64,000 nt of DNA from Methanospirillum hungatei (GTDB taxonomy: Archaea > Halobacteriota > Methanomicrobia > Methanomicrobiales > Methanospirillaceae), in assembly GCF_019263745.1 (NCBI RefSeq), contig NZ_CP077107.1:3038001-3102000 (forward strand). Direction: 5' to 3'. A program made the translations under genes and the position numbers. A model generated the notes under the pieces. It saw only the letters and a program-made list of their open reading frames with translations. It did no database searches and was not told the DNA's origin. Numbering within the stretch: the first letter of the stretch is position 1; each line of letters begins with the position of its first letter. This document shows, in pieces, positions 2 through 11,739 of the stretch.

Positions 2-394
2 GGAATGACATCACTCATTCGGGCAGGATTTGAAACCCTTGTTGAAGCTGGATATGCACCGGAAATGGCATATCTTGAGGTACTCCATGAGACAAAACTC
101 ATCGTTGACCTCATTTATGAAGGTGGATTTACTAAAATGCGTAATGCAATCTCGAACACTGCACAGTTTGGAGACCTGACCAGGGGACCCAGAGTTATTG
201 GTCAGGAGTCATATCTGGCTATGCAGGAGATTCTTGAAGAAATTCAGACAGGAGCATTTGCAAAAGAATGGATGCTTGAGAATATGGTCAATCGTCCTGT
301 ATTTACCGCACTCACCAAAGCCGATGAAGAGCACCTCATCGAAGAAGTTGGAAAAGAGATCAGGGCAACCATGCCCCAGTTTAAAAATCTCTAA
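2..394 (+). CDS. ilvC: Ketol-acid reductoisomerase, C-terminal part (5' truncated by window edge)
   Basis: This is the C-terminal knotted domain of ketol-acid reductoisomerase, the NADPH- and Mg-dependent second step of valine, leucine and isoleucine synthesis. The visible 130 codons run through the helical segment containing [16 protein letters not shown] and [14 protein letters not shown], whose acidic residues bind the metal ions in this family. They continue to the usual KARI C-terminus near residues NRPVFTAL. The reading frame is open to the first base, so the gene starts upstream of the window. Its stop codon overlaps by three bases the stop of the convergent CARF-HEPN gene. The length of the remaining segment fits a class I (short) enzyme. 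The assignment is secure from sequence alone. Confidence 0.95.
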
Positions 395-1632
395 ATATTC
401 TCAATATTATTTTTTCCTGACAGACAAAGAACCATAAAGCGTTCAATATCCGGAAGAATATCAGACGAACGCTTTCGGATAGAACGGATGCTGTCATCAC
501 GCTGGTTCATTCCACAATGAGCAAGATTATTTCGAAGATCAGATACCCGAATCCAGATCCTGACCAACTCTTTCCAGTCTGGATACAATATCAGATCATC
601 TGAATATTGGGTTTTGTCATATGATTTTTGTTGCAAATCCAAAGCTCCACCGGTCAATGTTCTGGATACCTGGTGGCGGATATCAGCATCCAACCAGTTT
701 GCATTCACATTCATCCGAATCATTAAAAGAGTTATCAGTACTTCGCGGGCAAGAGTAACTGCCTGGAGATATAATCCCTTATCAAGCTGGAATGATATCA
801 CCCGGATCTGTTTTTGAATATATTCTTCCGAGCAGTGATCAGGTTCAGGTTCTGCTGCAAGATCTGCAAGTTCCCTGGTTGCTCCAAGAACGGGAACAAG
901 GGATGGAGCATACCTGACCAGTTCTTCATTGACTTCATCCATATCACGGACTATTCCTGATGCAGCATACATCGCATCAACCGGACGAGCAAGGCGGACT
1001 GCGTCACTAAATTGCCAGAGTAGGCTTGCCCAACCAGTCAAACGAACCGGAGGATTTTGTTCTTCTCCTGACCGGTGAATGTTGCCTTGTAGATGATTGA
1101 GAAGGTTGTATATTGGCTCTGCATCAACATAGTGCGTAACTGATCTGACTCCTGCAATCCAATCCAAAATGTCCATCAAGGGTTTGAGGTCTACGAACCT
1201 GCAAAATCCATCATCACCAATAGCAGGTGCATAGATAACACCATGAATTGTTACATGTCTGACCGAGTGGAGATAAGAAGCGGCCAGGAAGGTCATGAAG
1301 GGTAACGAATGGCACCCTGCTGTGATATCGAAGAGAATTTCTTCATGATCAAGGGGGAGGGTACATAAAATACTAAAAATCTCCCACAACTGATCTTCAT
1401 CAGTTCCACATGGGATCCATACTTTGTTAACCGGAATATTACGGCTTTCTAAAGATGAAGCAATATGTGCAGCAGCCGGTTCAGAAAGGCAAAGAATAAT
1501 CTCATTTGGATGATACAAATGAAATATTGCCTCCTGAACAAGGTCTGATTCCATACAGGTTGTGTCACGACAATATCTTCTTTTTTCTAATAGGCCAGGA
1601 CCAGCAAATGAGATACATCGCATCTGATTCAT
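391..1632 (-). CDS. Stand-alone CARF-HEPN protein (Csx1/TM1812-like)
   Basis: The 413-residue product looks like a CRISPR-associated Csx1/TM1812-type protein. The N-terminal half (about 1-190) has the CARF pattern of that family: a beta strand ending in the glycine-rich motif FAGPG, WIPCG near residue 72, then [12 protein letters not shown] at 101-112, and a later segment [17 protein letters not shown]. The C-terminal domain is alpha-helical and carries RNNLAH at 367-372, an R-x4-H motif as in HEPN ribonucleases. In known relatives a cyclic oligoadenylate binds CARF and switches on HEPN RNA cleavage. No CRISPR array, cas10 or other cas gene lies in the window, so the signal source is unknown. 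The start could be Met1 or Met4 (1623). Function is inferred; the fold assignment is fairly confident. Confidence 0.75.
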
Positions 1633-4503: not shown

Positions 4504-4794
4504 TCAGAGGTATTCTGGATCGTAAAAGAAATTACACGTACAATGACCAGCCTGTTCAAGTTCATGTACATGATACTCACAGGGACAAATGATGGCCTTA
4601 TCTTTCTCTTTATCTCCTGAACGAATACGGCACGGACAATACCGTTCACCATGTCGGTCAGAATTCCGGGACAGCCCCTTGATCACTGCATTTCGTTGTT
4701 TTTCATCAGGATTGAGAACCCATCCTTTCGATCGGGAATACTCCAGAGCCCAACTTTTTATTTCATCTTCAGTTTCTGCCACAGGATCTCCCAT
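4504..4794 (-). CDS. Ferredoxin:thioredoxin reductase catalytic subunit
   Basis: A 96-residue protein matching the catalytic (beta) chain of ferredoxin:thioredoxin reductase, which uses a [4Fe-4S] cluster next to an active disulfide to pass electrons from ferredoxin to thioredoxin. The family cysteines are visible in order: YCPCRIRSGD, ICPCEYHV and HCTCNFFYD. These supply the CPC, CPC and CxC pairs that bind the cluster and form the redox disulfide. No variable (alpha) chain gene is adjacent, as is usual for methanogen FTR homologues. Neighbouring genes on both sides point elsewhere, so it is probably a single-gene unit. Confidence 0.92.
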   Translation of the reverse strand: MGDPVAETEDEIKSWALEYSRSKGWVLNPDEKQRNAVIKGLSRNSDRHGERYCPCRIRSGDKEKDKAIICPCEYHVHELEQAGHCTCNFFYDPEYL

Positions 4795-5291: not shown

Positions 5292-6989
5292 CTATATGGA
5301 AAATTCAGGAATAATTCGTTTTAACACATTCCGGTACGCGGTAATGACATCCCCTTTATCAAACCGGTATACATCTTTATCAAATGATTCGCCGGTTTCT
5401 TTATCCCACAATCGCATGGAATCCATACTAATCTCATCACCGAGGAAGATGTTCCCGCCTGCCTTTCCAAACTCAAGTTTGAAATCAACCAGACGAATGC
5501 CGCATTCATCAAAGAACCGGGTAAGAACAGTGTTTACCAGTAATGCTATCTTCTTTACCTGTGTGAGTTCATCGCCGGTCAGAATATGCAGGACCTGAAT
5601 GAGATCATCATTTATCATGGGATCTCCCCGTTCATCATCCTTGTAATCAATGGTAACTACCGGCCAATCCAGGACAGTTCCTTCAGCAACCGGATACTTT
5701 TTCGTCATCGAACCGGCAGCAACATTCCTGACAATGACTTCAAGGGGGATCATTTCCAAGCGACGGACGATCATTGTGTCAGGAGCAGACATTCGGATAT
5801 AGTGGGTTTTAATTCCCTCGGCCTCCAGCATCTTCATAAAAAAATTCGATGCAGTTGCATTCAGTCTTCCCTTGTCAGTAAACAGGTCATGCTTGACCCC
5901 ATTAAAGGCGGTCATATCATTTCGAAAGACAACAATCAGTTCATCAGGATTTTCACTGGTATAAACTGATTTTGCTTTCCCCTCATACAGGGGTTTTGCC
6001 GGTATCACGGATGAACCTCTCATAAGTATTGTGTTCTCAAGACTGATGATACGTTCCCTGATCTTGTCATGATACCAACCCTTCCGGATGTACTGCGGGT
6101 AGATACATAACCGCTCCTGTAATGTATATCCCTTTGTCAACGCTGCAAGTTCATCAAATGCCGGCCAGGGATGATCAGGATTTACATAGTCAATTGTTAC
6201 TGGAGAGATACCACCAAGATCAGTAACTCCACAAAGAAGAATTTTCTCTGCATCCGCAAGATTAGGAGGAATCTGAATAGCAATATCCGGAGGAAGAATC
6301 TCTTTTGCCATCCGGACGGTCTCTTGCATGTCACGAAGAGATGCTCCAGGAAATGCACTCATCTCTGTACCTGGTTTCGGACAGAAATTTTGAATTATTA
6401 TCTCCTGTATATGCCCGTATTTTTTATGTAAATCTGCAATGACCTGCAGGGATTGTCTTCGGTCGGACGGAGTTTCACCGATTCCAAGTAAAATGCCTGT
6501 AGTAAATGGAATTTTTAATCTTCCTGCATCCTCTATCATAGCAATCCGCCGACCGGGCTCTTTTCCCAGACAATTCCTGTGTGCAGGAATATCAGCTGTT
6601 GTCTCCAGCATCAGACCCATACTGGCATTCACATCTGACAGGTACTTCATTTCATCTGCGGTCATAACTCCGGCATTGGTATGAGGAAGAAGGCCTATTC
6701 GGAGTGCCTCTTCTGCCATAGCATGACAATATTCCAGGATTGATGAGTACCCAAATTGTTCCAGGAAGGGCAAAAATCCATCCACTTCTTCAGGGCGTTC
6801 CCCAAAGGTAAAGAGTGCCTCGGTGCATCCAGCCTCTGCCCCGCGCCTGAGTATCTGAAGAACTTCGTCAGGAGAGAGAACACATCCATCGCCGGGCGGG
6901 CGCCGGAAGATACAGTACCCACAGGAATTTCTGCAAACAAAAGTTAAAGGCAGAAAAACATTCCGCGAATATGTAATAACCGATGACAT
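5292..6989 (-). CDS. cofG-purC: Fused FO synthase subunit CofG and SAICAR synthetase PurC
   Basis: One continuous 565-codon frame joins two enzymes. Residues 1-322 are CofG, the radical SAM half of FO synthase in F420 synthesis, with the CX3CX2C cluster motif C19-C23-C26 and the segment HTNAGVMT. Residues from about 323 are PurC, which makes SAICAR in purine synthesis: KPLYEGKAKSVY at the start, then IPLEVIVRN, and near the end LVDFKLEFG and GDEISMDSMRLWD. Each half has its normal length (about 320 and 243 residues). A Met codon at 6021-6023 marks the expected PurC start but has no clear ribosome site, so a true fusion is more likely than internal initiation. It is divergent from cofC. No stop or frameshift is seen at the junction. 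Confidence 0.9.
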   Translation of the reverse strand: MSSVITYSRNVFLPLTFVCRNSCGYCIFRRPPGDGCVLSPDEVLQILRRGAEAGCTEALFTFGERPEEVDGFLPFLEQFGYSSILEYCHAMAEEALRIGLLPHTNAGVMTADEMKYLSDVNASMGLMLETTADIPAHRNCLGKEPGRRIAMIEDAGRLKIPFTTGILLGIGETPSDRRQSLQVIADLHKKYGHIQEIIIQNFCPKPGTEMSAFPGASLRDMQETVRMAKEILPPDIAIQIPPNLADAEKILLCGVTDLGGISPVTIDYVNPDHPWPAFDELAALTKGYTLQERLCIYPQYIRKGWYHDKIRERIISLENTILMRGSSVIPAKPLYEGKAKSVYTSENPDELIVVFRNDMTAFNGVKHDLFTDKGRLNATASNFFMKMLEAEGIKTHYIRMSAPDTMIVRRLEMIPLEVIVRNVAAGSMTKKYPVAEGTVLDWPVVTIDYKDDERGDPMINDDLIQVLHILTGDELTQVKKIALLVNTVLTRFFDECGIRLVDFKLEFGKAGGNIFLGDEISMDSMRLWDKETGESFDKDVYRFDKGDVITAYRNVLKRIIPEFSI

Positions 6990-7088: not shown

Positions 7089-7730
7089 ATGCGGATACCG
7101 GTTGTCATCCCCTACAAACCAATAAATCCAAAGACTCGTCTTTCATGCATTCTAACCGAGAATGAGCGGGAAAGTTTTGCTTATGCAATGCTCCGGGATG
7201 TCGTTGATGCAGTGAAAAGTGCAGGATGCTCACCTCTTATCCTTGCTACAGCACCAGTTACACTTGATGATGTTCCAGTCCAAATCCTGGAAGAAGGACT
7301 AAACGAAACAATAAATAAGTTCTGCGAGGGAAATGAAGAGCCGATGGCTATTGTTATGGCTGATCTTGCTCTTGCTGACCGGTCGTCAATTCTCTCTCTT
7401 CTCACTTCCGGTGGCGATCTCGCCATTGCTCCAGGACGAGGTGGAGGAACTAACGGAATATATGTCAGATCTGCAACATTATTTCAAGCTCAGTACTATG
7501 GAATGAGTTATGAAAAACACGTCAGGTATGGGACAGATACCGGACTTATGGTAAAAATAATCGATTCATTCAGATTATACTGTGACATTGACGAGCAGGA
7601 TGACCTAATAGAAATCTTCATCCACAATAATGGATATTCACGGGACTGGCTTATCAGACAAGGATTTGAAATTGCAATGAAAAAGAGCAGAATTGGTGTA
7701 AAAAGGCCTGATTGTGAGAGTGATCTTTAA
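7089..7730 (+). CDS. cofC: 2-phospho-L-lactate guanylyltransferase
   Basis: The 213-residue enzyme activates 2-phospho-L-lactate (or phosphoenolpyruvate in some lineages) with GTP, giving the lactyl-diphospho-guanosine donor used by CofD in F420 synthesis. The N-terminus RIPVVIPYKPINPKTRLS is the nucleotide-binding loop of the CofC family. LALADRSSI and APGRGGGTNGIY are further family motifs. The ATG at 7089 gives the normal family start; an upstream in-frame ATG at 7002 would add 29 atypical residues. It is divergent from cofG-purC, with about 100 bp between start codons that probably carry both promoters. Confidence 0.93.
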   Translation: MRIPVVIPYKPINPKTRLSCILTENERESFAYAMLRDVVDAVKSAGCSPLILATAPVTLDDVPVQILEEGLNETINKFCEGNEEPMAIVMADLALADRSSILSLLTSGGDLAIAPGRGGGTNGIYVRSATLFQAQYYGMSYEKHVRYGTDTGLMVKIIDSFRLYCDIDEQDDLIEIFIHNNGYSRDWLIRQGFEIAMKKSRIGVKRPDCESDL

Positions 7731-10154: not shown

Positions 10155-10871
10155 TTAAATTCGGTTGGTTGCAAGTGCCTGACCTGCACAATCTCTTGCA
10201 GGGTAGGTCACATGTTCCCACTGATCAAGTACTTCTGATCCTTCAATAAATGCAAGATCATGTTGCTTTGCATAACGAATTGCATCTTCTTTGGATAAGG
10301 CATTCCCGGACTCATCATCAAGCATCTCACATATCGTGATTGTCTGAGGTATACCTGCCATTTCAGCCATAGCAACTGACAATTCGGTCTGCCCATGCCT
10401 CTGGGAAAGCAAATTTTCTGCTGCAATCAGAATTGGCATATGTCCGGGAGTCCTAAATTGTTCTTTAAAAGAAACCTGCTTTCCATTTAGAACATTCTGA
10501 ACTATTTCAGATATGGCGTTGACTGTTTTTGTCCGGTCACGGTCAGTAATGCCAGTAAATGTATCACGGTGATTGACCCAGAGTGAGAAAGAAGAGTTGT
10601 TGGATGGATCATATGGGATATCTCCAAGTTTTTCAACCATGGCACAATTTCGTAACACTTCCCGTGCAAAAGGAAGACCCAACTTTTGAGCTGCAAGATA
10701 AGGAATTGCTGTACAGATAAGTCCACCTGCTTCATTTCTCATCTGACAAATGTGCCGGGGATTCATCATATCTGAACGCATTGCAAGGTCTGTTTCACGT
10801 TCACGGTCATCAAAATCATACAGCAGGACCATCTCACCCTGCCTCAGTGCGGTAAATGCGTCTTTTGTCAT
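10155..10871 (-). CDS. ribB: 3,4-dihydroxy-2-butanone 4-phosphate synthase
   Basis: A 238-residue enzyme that converts ribulose 5-phosphate to 3,4-dihydroxy-2-butanone 4-phosphate and formate, a carbon source for the riboflavin ring. The family motif LLYDFDDRERETDLAM with its metal-binding acidic residues is present near the N-terminus. So are GGLICTAIP, DTFTGITDRDR and FRTPGHMPIL, which match the substrate-binding loops. The start codon overlaps the stop of ribK upstream by four bases, so the two riboflavin genes are translationally coupled. No GTP cyclohydrolase II domain is fused, as expected for archaea. Confidence 0.95.
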   Translation of the reverse strand: MTKDAFTALRQGEMVLLYDFDDRERETDLAMRSDMMNPRHICQMRNEAGGLICTAIPYLAAQKLGLPFAREVLRNCAMVEKLGDIPYDPSNNSSFSLWVNHRDTFTGITDRDRTKTVNAISEIVQNVLNGKQVSFKEQFRTPGHMPILIAAENLLSQRHGQTELSVAMAEMAGIPQTITICEMLDDESGNALSKEDAIRYAKQHDLAFIEGSEVLDQWEHVTYPARDCAGQALATNRI

Positions 10872-11533
10872 AATGTCACCTCTATTGCTATTTCATCGCC
10901 ATCTTTGAGAGAAAACTTTTTTCGAAGTCCTTCAGGAGCGACAACTTCGATAAGTTCTTCAGGATAATGAGTCCGGCCAGGAATGATGATTCCACAGGGA
11001 ACCTCGCTGATAAAACAAGGCAGACACCGTACATCACCAAAGGTCCGGCCTTCAGATTCAAATCCCTGTACAACCTTCCAGTCTGCACTTGAAAGACGCT
11101 TTCTCTGCCGGGCTGCACCTGGGAGAAGTCGGATATTCAGTGTTCCGGGAAATGGTGTAAATCCAAGCAGATCCTGAAACTGATCGGCATATGGACGAAG
11201 ACTCATATAGTAGGCACCTTCACCAAGTCCTGACTGAACTGTACCACCAAGCATCAGGGTTTTTTCCTGGCGTCCGAATAACCGGTAATAGTCACAATAT
11301 TCTTGCCTGAGAGCATCCTCCCCGTCATGGGTGATGGTCACCTGTTGTCCGTCGGTCCCAAGCACCCGGCTGATAAACTGTTGCTGTTCAAGCGAGCGCA
11401 ACCTTCTCGATGCCGTCTGAGGACTAAATCCCAGTTCTGAACCAAGACTAATCGTTTTTAAAAAAACCGGAGTATTCAGACCGCCCATAAGAGCAATCCG
11501 TTTGAGACATTCCAGATCCTCCGGGGTAACCAT
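10868..11533 (-). CDS. ribK: CTP-dependent riboflavin kinase with N-terminal HTH
   Basis: Archaeal riboflavin kinase, which uses CTP to phosphorylate riboflavin to FMN. The C-terminal domain (about 85-221) has GTVQSGLGEGAYYMSL and FTPFPGTLNIRL, both diagnostic, then PEGLRKKFSLKDGDEI. The N-terminal 80 residues form a winged helix-turn-helix (LGFSPQTASRRLRSLEQQQ), so the enzyme may also bind DNA and sense flavin, as proposed for this two-domain type. I chose the ATG at 11533, which gives 221 residues as in the family; the frame stays open to 11644 but the extra residues look non-homologous. It overlaps ribB by four bases. Confidence 0.92.
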   Translation of the reverse strand: MVTPEDLECLKRIALMGGLNTPVFLKTISLGSELGFSPQTASRRLRSLEQQQFISRVLGTDGQQVTITHDGEDALRQEYCDYYRLFGRQEKTLMLGGTVQSGLGEGAYYMSLRPYADQFQDLLGFTPFPGTLNIRLLPGAARQRKRLSSADWKVVQGFESEGRTFGDVRCLPCFISEVPCGIIIPGRTHYPEELIEVVAPEGLRKKFSLKDGDEIAIEVTL

Positions 11534-11739
11534 GATATCATATGTGAGATGGATCCTATTAATGTGTTTCCATATATGGTGATCATGCCAGGAGTGATAT
11601 GGACGATCAATACAATTCATCACCTCGTCTTCATCTTTCATCATGAGAAAAACATGAACGATCAGAGATCTCTCTCTCGTATTCAGAATTATTTATTTTA
11701 AAGCAAATTATTTTATATCAAAGCAATCCACATCACCAT

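Follow-up and report, generated by a model that had tools for sequence, protein, structure and literature searches.

A cofG-purC fusion in Methanospirillum, its likely origin from overlapping genes, and a candidate internal start for free PurC

The region analyzed here, referred to as the window, is a 64,000-nucleotide stretch of a Methanospirillum hungatei genome (contig NZ_CP077107.1, positions 3,038,001 to 3,102,000) in which CofG, an enzyme of F420 precursor synthesis, and PurC, an enzyme of purine synthesis, are encoded by one frame. The locus raises the questions of how the two came to be joined and whether the frame yields one protein or two. Brown et al. described a CofG-PurC fusion, Mhun_1253, from M. 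hungatei in 2011 (PMC3261824, section 12). They found no further example, pointed out that purC follows a radical SAM gene in several relatives, and offered two possible roles for the fusion, namely regulating PurC or serving co-regulation in the synthesis of a cofactor. A literature search for a CofG-PurC fusion found nothing beyond this paper.

The fused frame and its two domains

The cofG-purC open reading frame lies on the minus strand at 5292..6989 and runs for 565 codons without a stop; the plus strand over the same stretch contains many stops. The initial annotation had described this single frame without naming its strand and had credited both halves with full catalytic motifs, and both descriptions hold. 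The CofG part comprises codons 1–327 (6009..6989, minus strand), with a domain at residues 6–314 that matches TIGR03550 with 450.9 bits (equivalog cut-off 213.35; model positions 1–321 of 322) and a radical SAM CxxxCxxC motif formed by C19, C23, and C26, identified by inspection of the translation. The PurC part comprises codons 328–565 (5292..6008, minus strand), with a domain at residues 333–558. It matches TIGR00081 with 236.5 bits (cut-off 189.9; residues 333–541) and Pfam SAICAR_synt (PF01259) with 258.3 bits (cut-off 20; residues 334–558; model positions 2–232 of 233), and its best relative in the PDB is 2yzl, aligned over residues 327–559. The PurC motifs YEGKAK, VRNVAAGS, LVDFKLEFG, and MRLWD were found by inspection of the translation. 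By inspection alone, YEGKAK, VRNVAAGS, LVDFKLE, and MRLWD appear to carry the substrate-contacting residues given in PMC3261824 (Lys11, Lys13, Arg94, Ser100, Asp175, Glu179, and Arg199). Both the CofG and the PurC domain would be expected to be active.

AlphaFold predicts the protein as two domains of high confidence (mean pLDDT 91), with helix 308–325 closing CofG and a single stretch with pLDDT below 50, residues 326–328, located exactly at the junction. The predicted structure would look like two independent enzymes with a short hinge between them, and the pTM of 0.65 lends no support to a fixed inter-domain arrangement.

The genome containing the window is a single contig of 3.39 Mb. Family searches returned one cofG and one purC per genome and no second CofG or PurC locus in the genome of the window, indicating that the fused frame is the sole source of both. 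Being encoded by the sole cofG of a methanogen, the CofG half is a putative FO synthase. Because the sole cofG and the sole purC share a frame with no in-frame stop after CofG, CofG would form the N-terminal portion of a CofG-PurC protein, and since CofG is obtainable only from this frame, barring a frameshift, production of the fused chain is very likely.

Divergent from cofG-purC lies cofC (7089–7730, plus strand; TIGR03552, 172.9 bits against a cut-off of 105), which likely starts at the ATG at 7089 and not as the longer frame from 7002. Flavin genes are also found near the F420 genes: a CTP-dependent riboflavin kinase whose N-terminal part is of the winged-helix (MarR-like) type (10155–11644, minus strand) is followed, with a 4-base overlap, by a gene for 3,4-dihydroxy-2-butanone 4-phosphate synthase. 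Elsewhere in the window, a 96-residue protein resembling the ferredoxin-thioredoxin reductase catalytic beta chain is encoded at 4504–4794 (minus strand), and a 413-residue protein at 391–1632 (minus strand) matches CARF-HEPN Csx1 models (PADLOC E value 4e-78; TIGR02221 just under the cut-off), pointing to a CRISPR type III associated effector.

Distribution and origin of the fusion

Related genomes had been suggested as the place to look for the same fusion, and it was found there. Among 12 Methanospirillum genomes, seven have the fused, uninterrupted frame (G000, G156, G178, G149, G512, G197, and G172), four sister genomes have two separate genes with a 4-base ATGA overlap (G168, G164, G509, and G510), and in one (G511) the contig ends inside cofG, giving 7 fused of 11 assessable genomes. 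The length through the junction is identical in all seven fused frames, and the junction sequence is shared as well. A frameshift in this assembly had been named as the finding that would undo the fusion, and one base would indeed be enough for an assembly or sequencing error to remove a stop codon. The seven separate assemblies agree, two of them being single-contig, and have the same junction length; the uninterrupted frame that they share is thus no frameshift of this assembly, and error as the source of the joined frame is ruled out, its chance being practically nil.

Trees of CofG, of PurC, and of both combined split the seven fused sequences from the unfused sisters and outgroups with bootstrap values of 96, 100, and 100%, respectively, and a single fusion event therefore suffices. 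The fused Methanospirillum species form one clade, and the fusion was fixed once in this subclade. Pairwise DNA identity among the seven species is 76–94%, and the fused protein of the window shares 88% identity with its G156 relative. A second unbroken cofG-purC frame occurs in a metagenome-assembled genome (MAG) from the same family but a different genus (G191, L015 = L040, from Lake Pavin sediment) and groups in the trees with unfused relatives. This apparently independent fusion, known from a single MAG, is either a separate event or an error in that MAG. A phylum-wide search of 393 genomes gave no extra fusion among the matches listed, in which the fused matches rank first. At one locus (L020, G069) the purC frame after cofG seemed broken past about 100 codons, which may reflect a pseudogene, an assembly error, or an extraction fault.

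cofG and purC are adjacent in nearly all related loci examined, an arrangement that holds across the order, and the fusion is therefore most simply understood as a one-base change between overlapping operon genes. In most of the unfused loci examined, purC starts exactly 21 nt ahead of the first YxGK codon, and its start codon commonly overlaps the cofG stop as ATGA or GTGA. The fused species have a GTG at this ancestral position, likewise 21 nt before the YxGK codon (codon 328; 6006..6008, minus strand, in the window), and ahead of it an AGAGGT that is invariant in all seven and matches the purC ribosome-binding site, retained inside the cofG frame (6015..6020, minus strand). The spacer between the two measures 6 nt in the window (6009..6014, minus strand) versus 5 nt in the unfused sisters, the junction sequences being AGAGGTTCATCCGTGA and AGAGGTATGCTATGA, respectively; in the alignment behind this comparison, G000 alone represents the fused side. 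A net gain of one base in this spacer is the simplest path from two overlapping genes to one frame. In the ancestor, cofG and purC would have shared a four-base overlap (ATGA or GTGA), and one added base between the purC ribosome-binding site and start codon would have joined the frames and pushed the cofG stop out of frame. The out-of-frame TGA at 6005..6007 (minus strand), conserved in all seven fused species, appears to be the remnant of that overlapping stop (GTGA).

Nucleotide constraint at the ancestral purC start

Separate PurC synthesis had been suggested in the initial annotation, with the Met codon at 6021–6023 as its start. The idea itself is well supported, whereas the start would be the GTG at codon 328 with its ribosome-binding site. 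The ATG is present in frame, has weaker 16S pairing, and reads ACG or AGG in two fused relatives; not being conserved, it is ruled out as the PurC start. The AGAGGT pairs with the 16S tail of the genome, GATCACCTCCT, at −7.2 to −7.6 kcal/mol, similar to the −6.3 to −7.7 kcal/mol of the unfused sisters. This pairing alone is not exceptional, as 3–9% of positions in the same genes pair equally well or better, and the strength of the site is moderate.

Synonymous constraint was expressed as the share of same codons among pairs of identical residues in the seven fused species, which is 57% overall. Codons 321–330 show 100% identical codons compared with the gene-wide 57%, codons 317–331 have a synonymous identity of 0.96 compared with 0.57, and the peak over the 563 codons falls at about 317–341 (5967..6041, minus strand). 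The top windows of the whole frame fall at the junction at every size tested. Family-wise permutation P values for the peak are 0.016 (7-codon windows), 0.0002 (11 codons), and 0/5000 (15 and 25 codons), and after correction for amino-acid type they are 0.0002 (7 codons) and 0/5000 (15 and 25 codons). Successive bins across codons 311–350 give 0.91, 1.00, 0.85, and 0.71, and the first 30 codons of the frame itself carry a milder mark (0.66, 0.66, and 0.79). At the true purC start of the unfused sisters, the values are 0.85 at the cofG end and 0.93 and 0.88 in the first 20 purC codons. Amino-acid changes are frequent within the constrained stretch (codons 320–323, 326, 327, 331, 332, and 336), indicating that the constraint acts on the nucleotides and not on the protein and making gene conversion unlikely. 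A synonymous freeze at the ribosome-binding site and GTG, as at unfused purC starts, suggests that free PurC is probably still made.

The constraint could instead mark another nucleotide-level element. Only the fusion protein would then be made, with the junction nucleotides having some other role, such as that of an RNA element or a promoter of purC inside the frame, or persisting as an undecayed remnant. Internal promoters can occur in archaeal operons, and initiation at the GTG is a prediction from the sequence. We nevertheless regard this explanation as unlikely, since elsewhere all seven species agree at only 9% of fourfold sites, so that a mere remnant would have decayed, and since the constraint is centred on the ribosome-binding site and start at their ancestral spacing, matching the starts of unfused purC genes.

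The conserved out-of-frame TGA could also be read as functional, with a programmed +1 frameshift just before the GTG giving access to it and releasing free CofG; a Shine-Dalgarno-like sequence stands just upstream, as in prfB. Such a frameshift is very improbable, as there is no in-frame stop or clear slippery codon to hold the ribosome and the GTG is preceded by a variable codon (TCC or TTC). Use of the GTG as a start codon explains its invariance, and the TGA is conserved because GTG ATA is invariant.

The best explanation, which we consider probable, is that a single fusion event by gain of one base created the frame and that the cell makes both the fusion and free PurC from the retained GTG. 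Selection would have kept the old ribosome-binding site and GTG, so that ribosomes also start within the message. That one frame gives two products in this way, a CofG-PurC fusion and free PurC from the conserved start signals of the ancestral operon, seems rather likely from the sequence comparisons. Two proteins would then exist, the fusion at about 62 kDa and, from the GTG, a 238-residue free PurC at about 27 kDa, the masses being estimates from length. Ribosomes may initiate only weakly within a frame that is itself being actively translated. The cell would hold a CofG-bearing PurC and a plain PurC, able to mix in oligomers.

Significance and relation to known fusions

The initial annotation had offered linkage of purine and deazaflavin supply as the reason for the fusion, for which nothing was found beyond the general neighborhood of cofG and purC. 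More broadly, the linkage might be adaptive, coordinating or channeling purine and deazaflavin synthesis or, as one option in PMC3261824, letting CofG regulate PurC. Adjacency of cofG and purC across the order is in keeping with this, as are the facts that purines feed both routes, FO being derived from GTP, that the frame is still joined in all seven species, and that an apparently independent fusion occurs in the Lake Pavin MAG. However, the substrate of CofG comes from CofH and the product of PurC lies several reactions away from GTP, which leaves no direct channel, and the AlphaFold model lacks a confident arrangement of the domains. A test for avoided stops in the linker, underpowered because of its few stop-accessible sites, was not significant (P 0.06–0.28 for the codons before the GTG), reaching P 0.02 only when codons 328–333, inside PurC, were counted. 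An adaptive role for the linkage seems improbable, and we favor a one-base joining of overlapping genes with retention of the internal start.

Read as such a joining, the one-species curiosity of 2011 becomes a fusion shared by a clade, with an origin that can be traced to a single base and old start signals that would still be under selection. It would represent a case of overlapping operon genes fusing while the downstream enzyme keeps an independent dosage. For annotators it is a caution that PurC may exist in two forms and that a fusion by itself does little to establish a metabolic link.

Mhun_1253 has the same architecture as the window gene, an N-terminal CofG-like radical SAM domain and a C-terminal PurC, and in the window, too, an unbroken frame runs from CofG into PurC, as part of the same event across the seven fused genomes. 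The window gene is counted as that of a different species, with 81% DNA identity over the gene. The earlier paper covers one species only and is silent on overlapping genes as the source of the fusion and on any start within the frame (PMC3261824); the distribution, the proposed gain of one base, and the conserved candidate start inside the frame are new here. The separate, adjacent cofG and purC genes of other Methanomicrobiales share order, strand, ribosome-binding site, and start position with the window gene and often overlap as ATGA or GTGA, but, unlike it, lie in separate reading frames, cofG having its own stop. FbiC of Actinobacteria, a CofG-CofH fusion, likewise joins CofG to another enzyme in one chain, and even in FbiC the two domains reportedly work independently of each other, by diffusion (review PMC8498797). 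There CofG is joined to CofH, the enzyme that comes before it in their common pathway, whereas the partner in the window is PurC. PurC is likewise joined to another enzyme in PurC-PurE (PAICS), one of several purine enzyme fusions. In contrast to PAICS and similar proteins, which unite consecutive purine enzymes, the window protein joins PurC to CofG, an enzyme of a different pathway.
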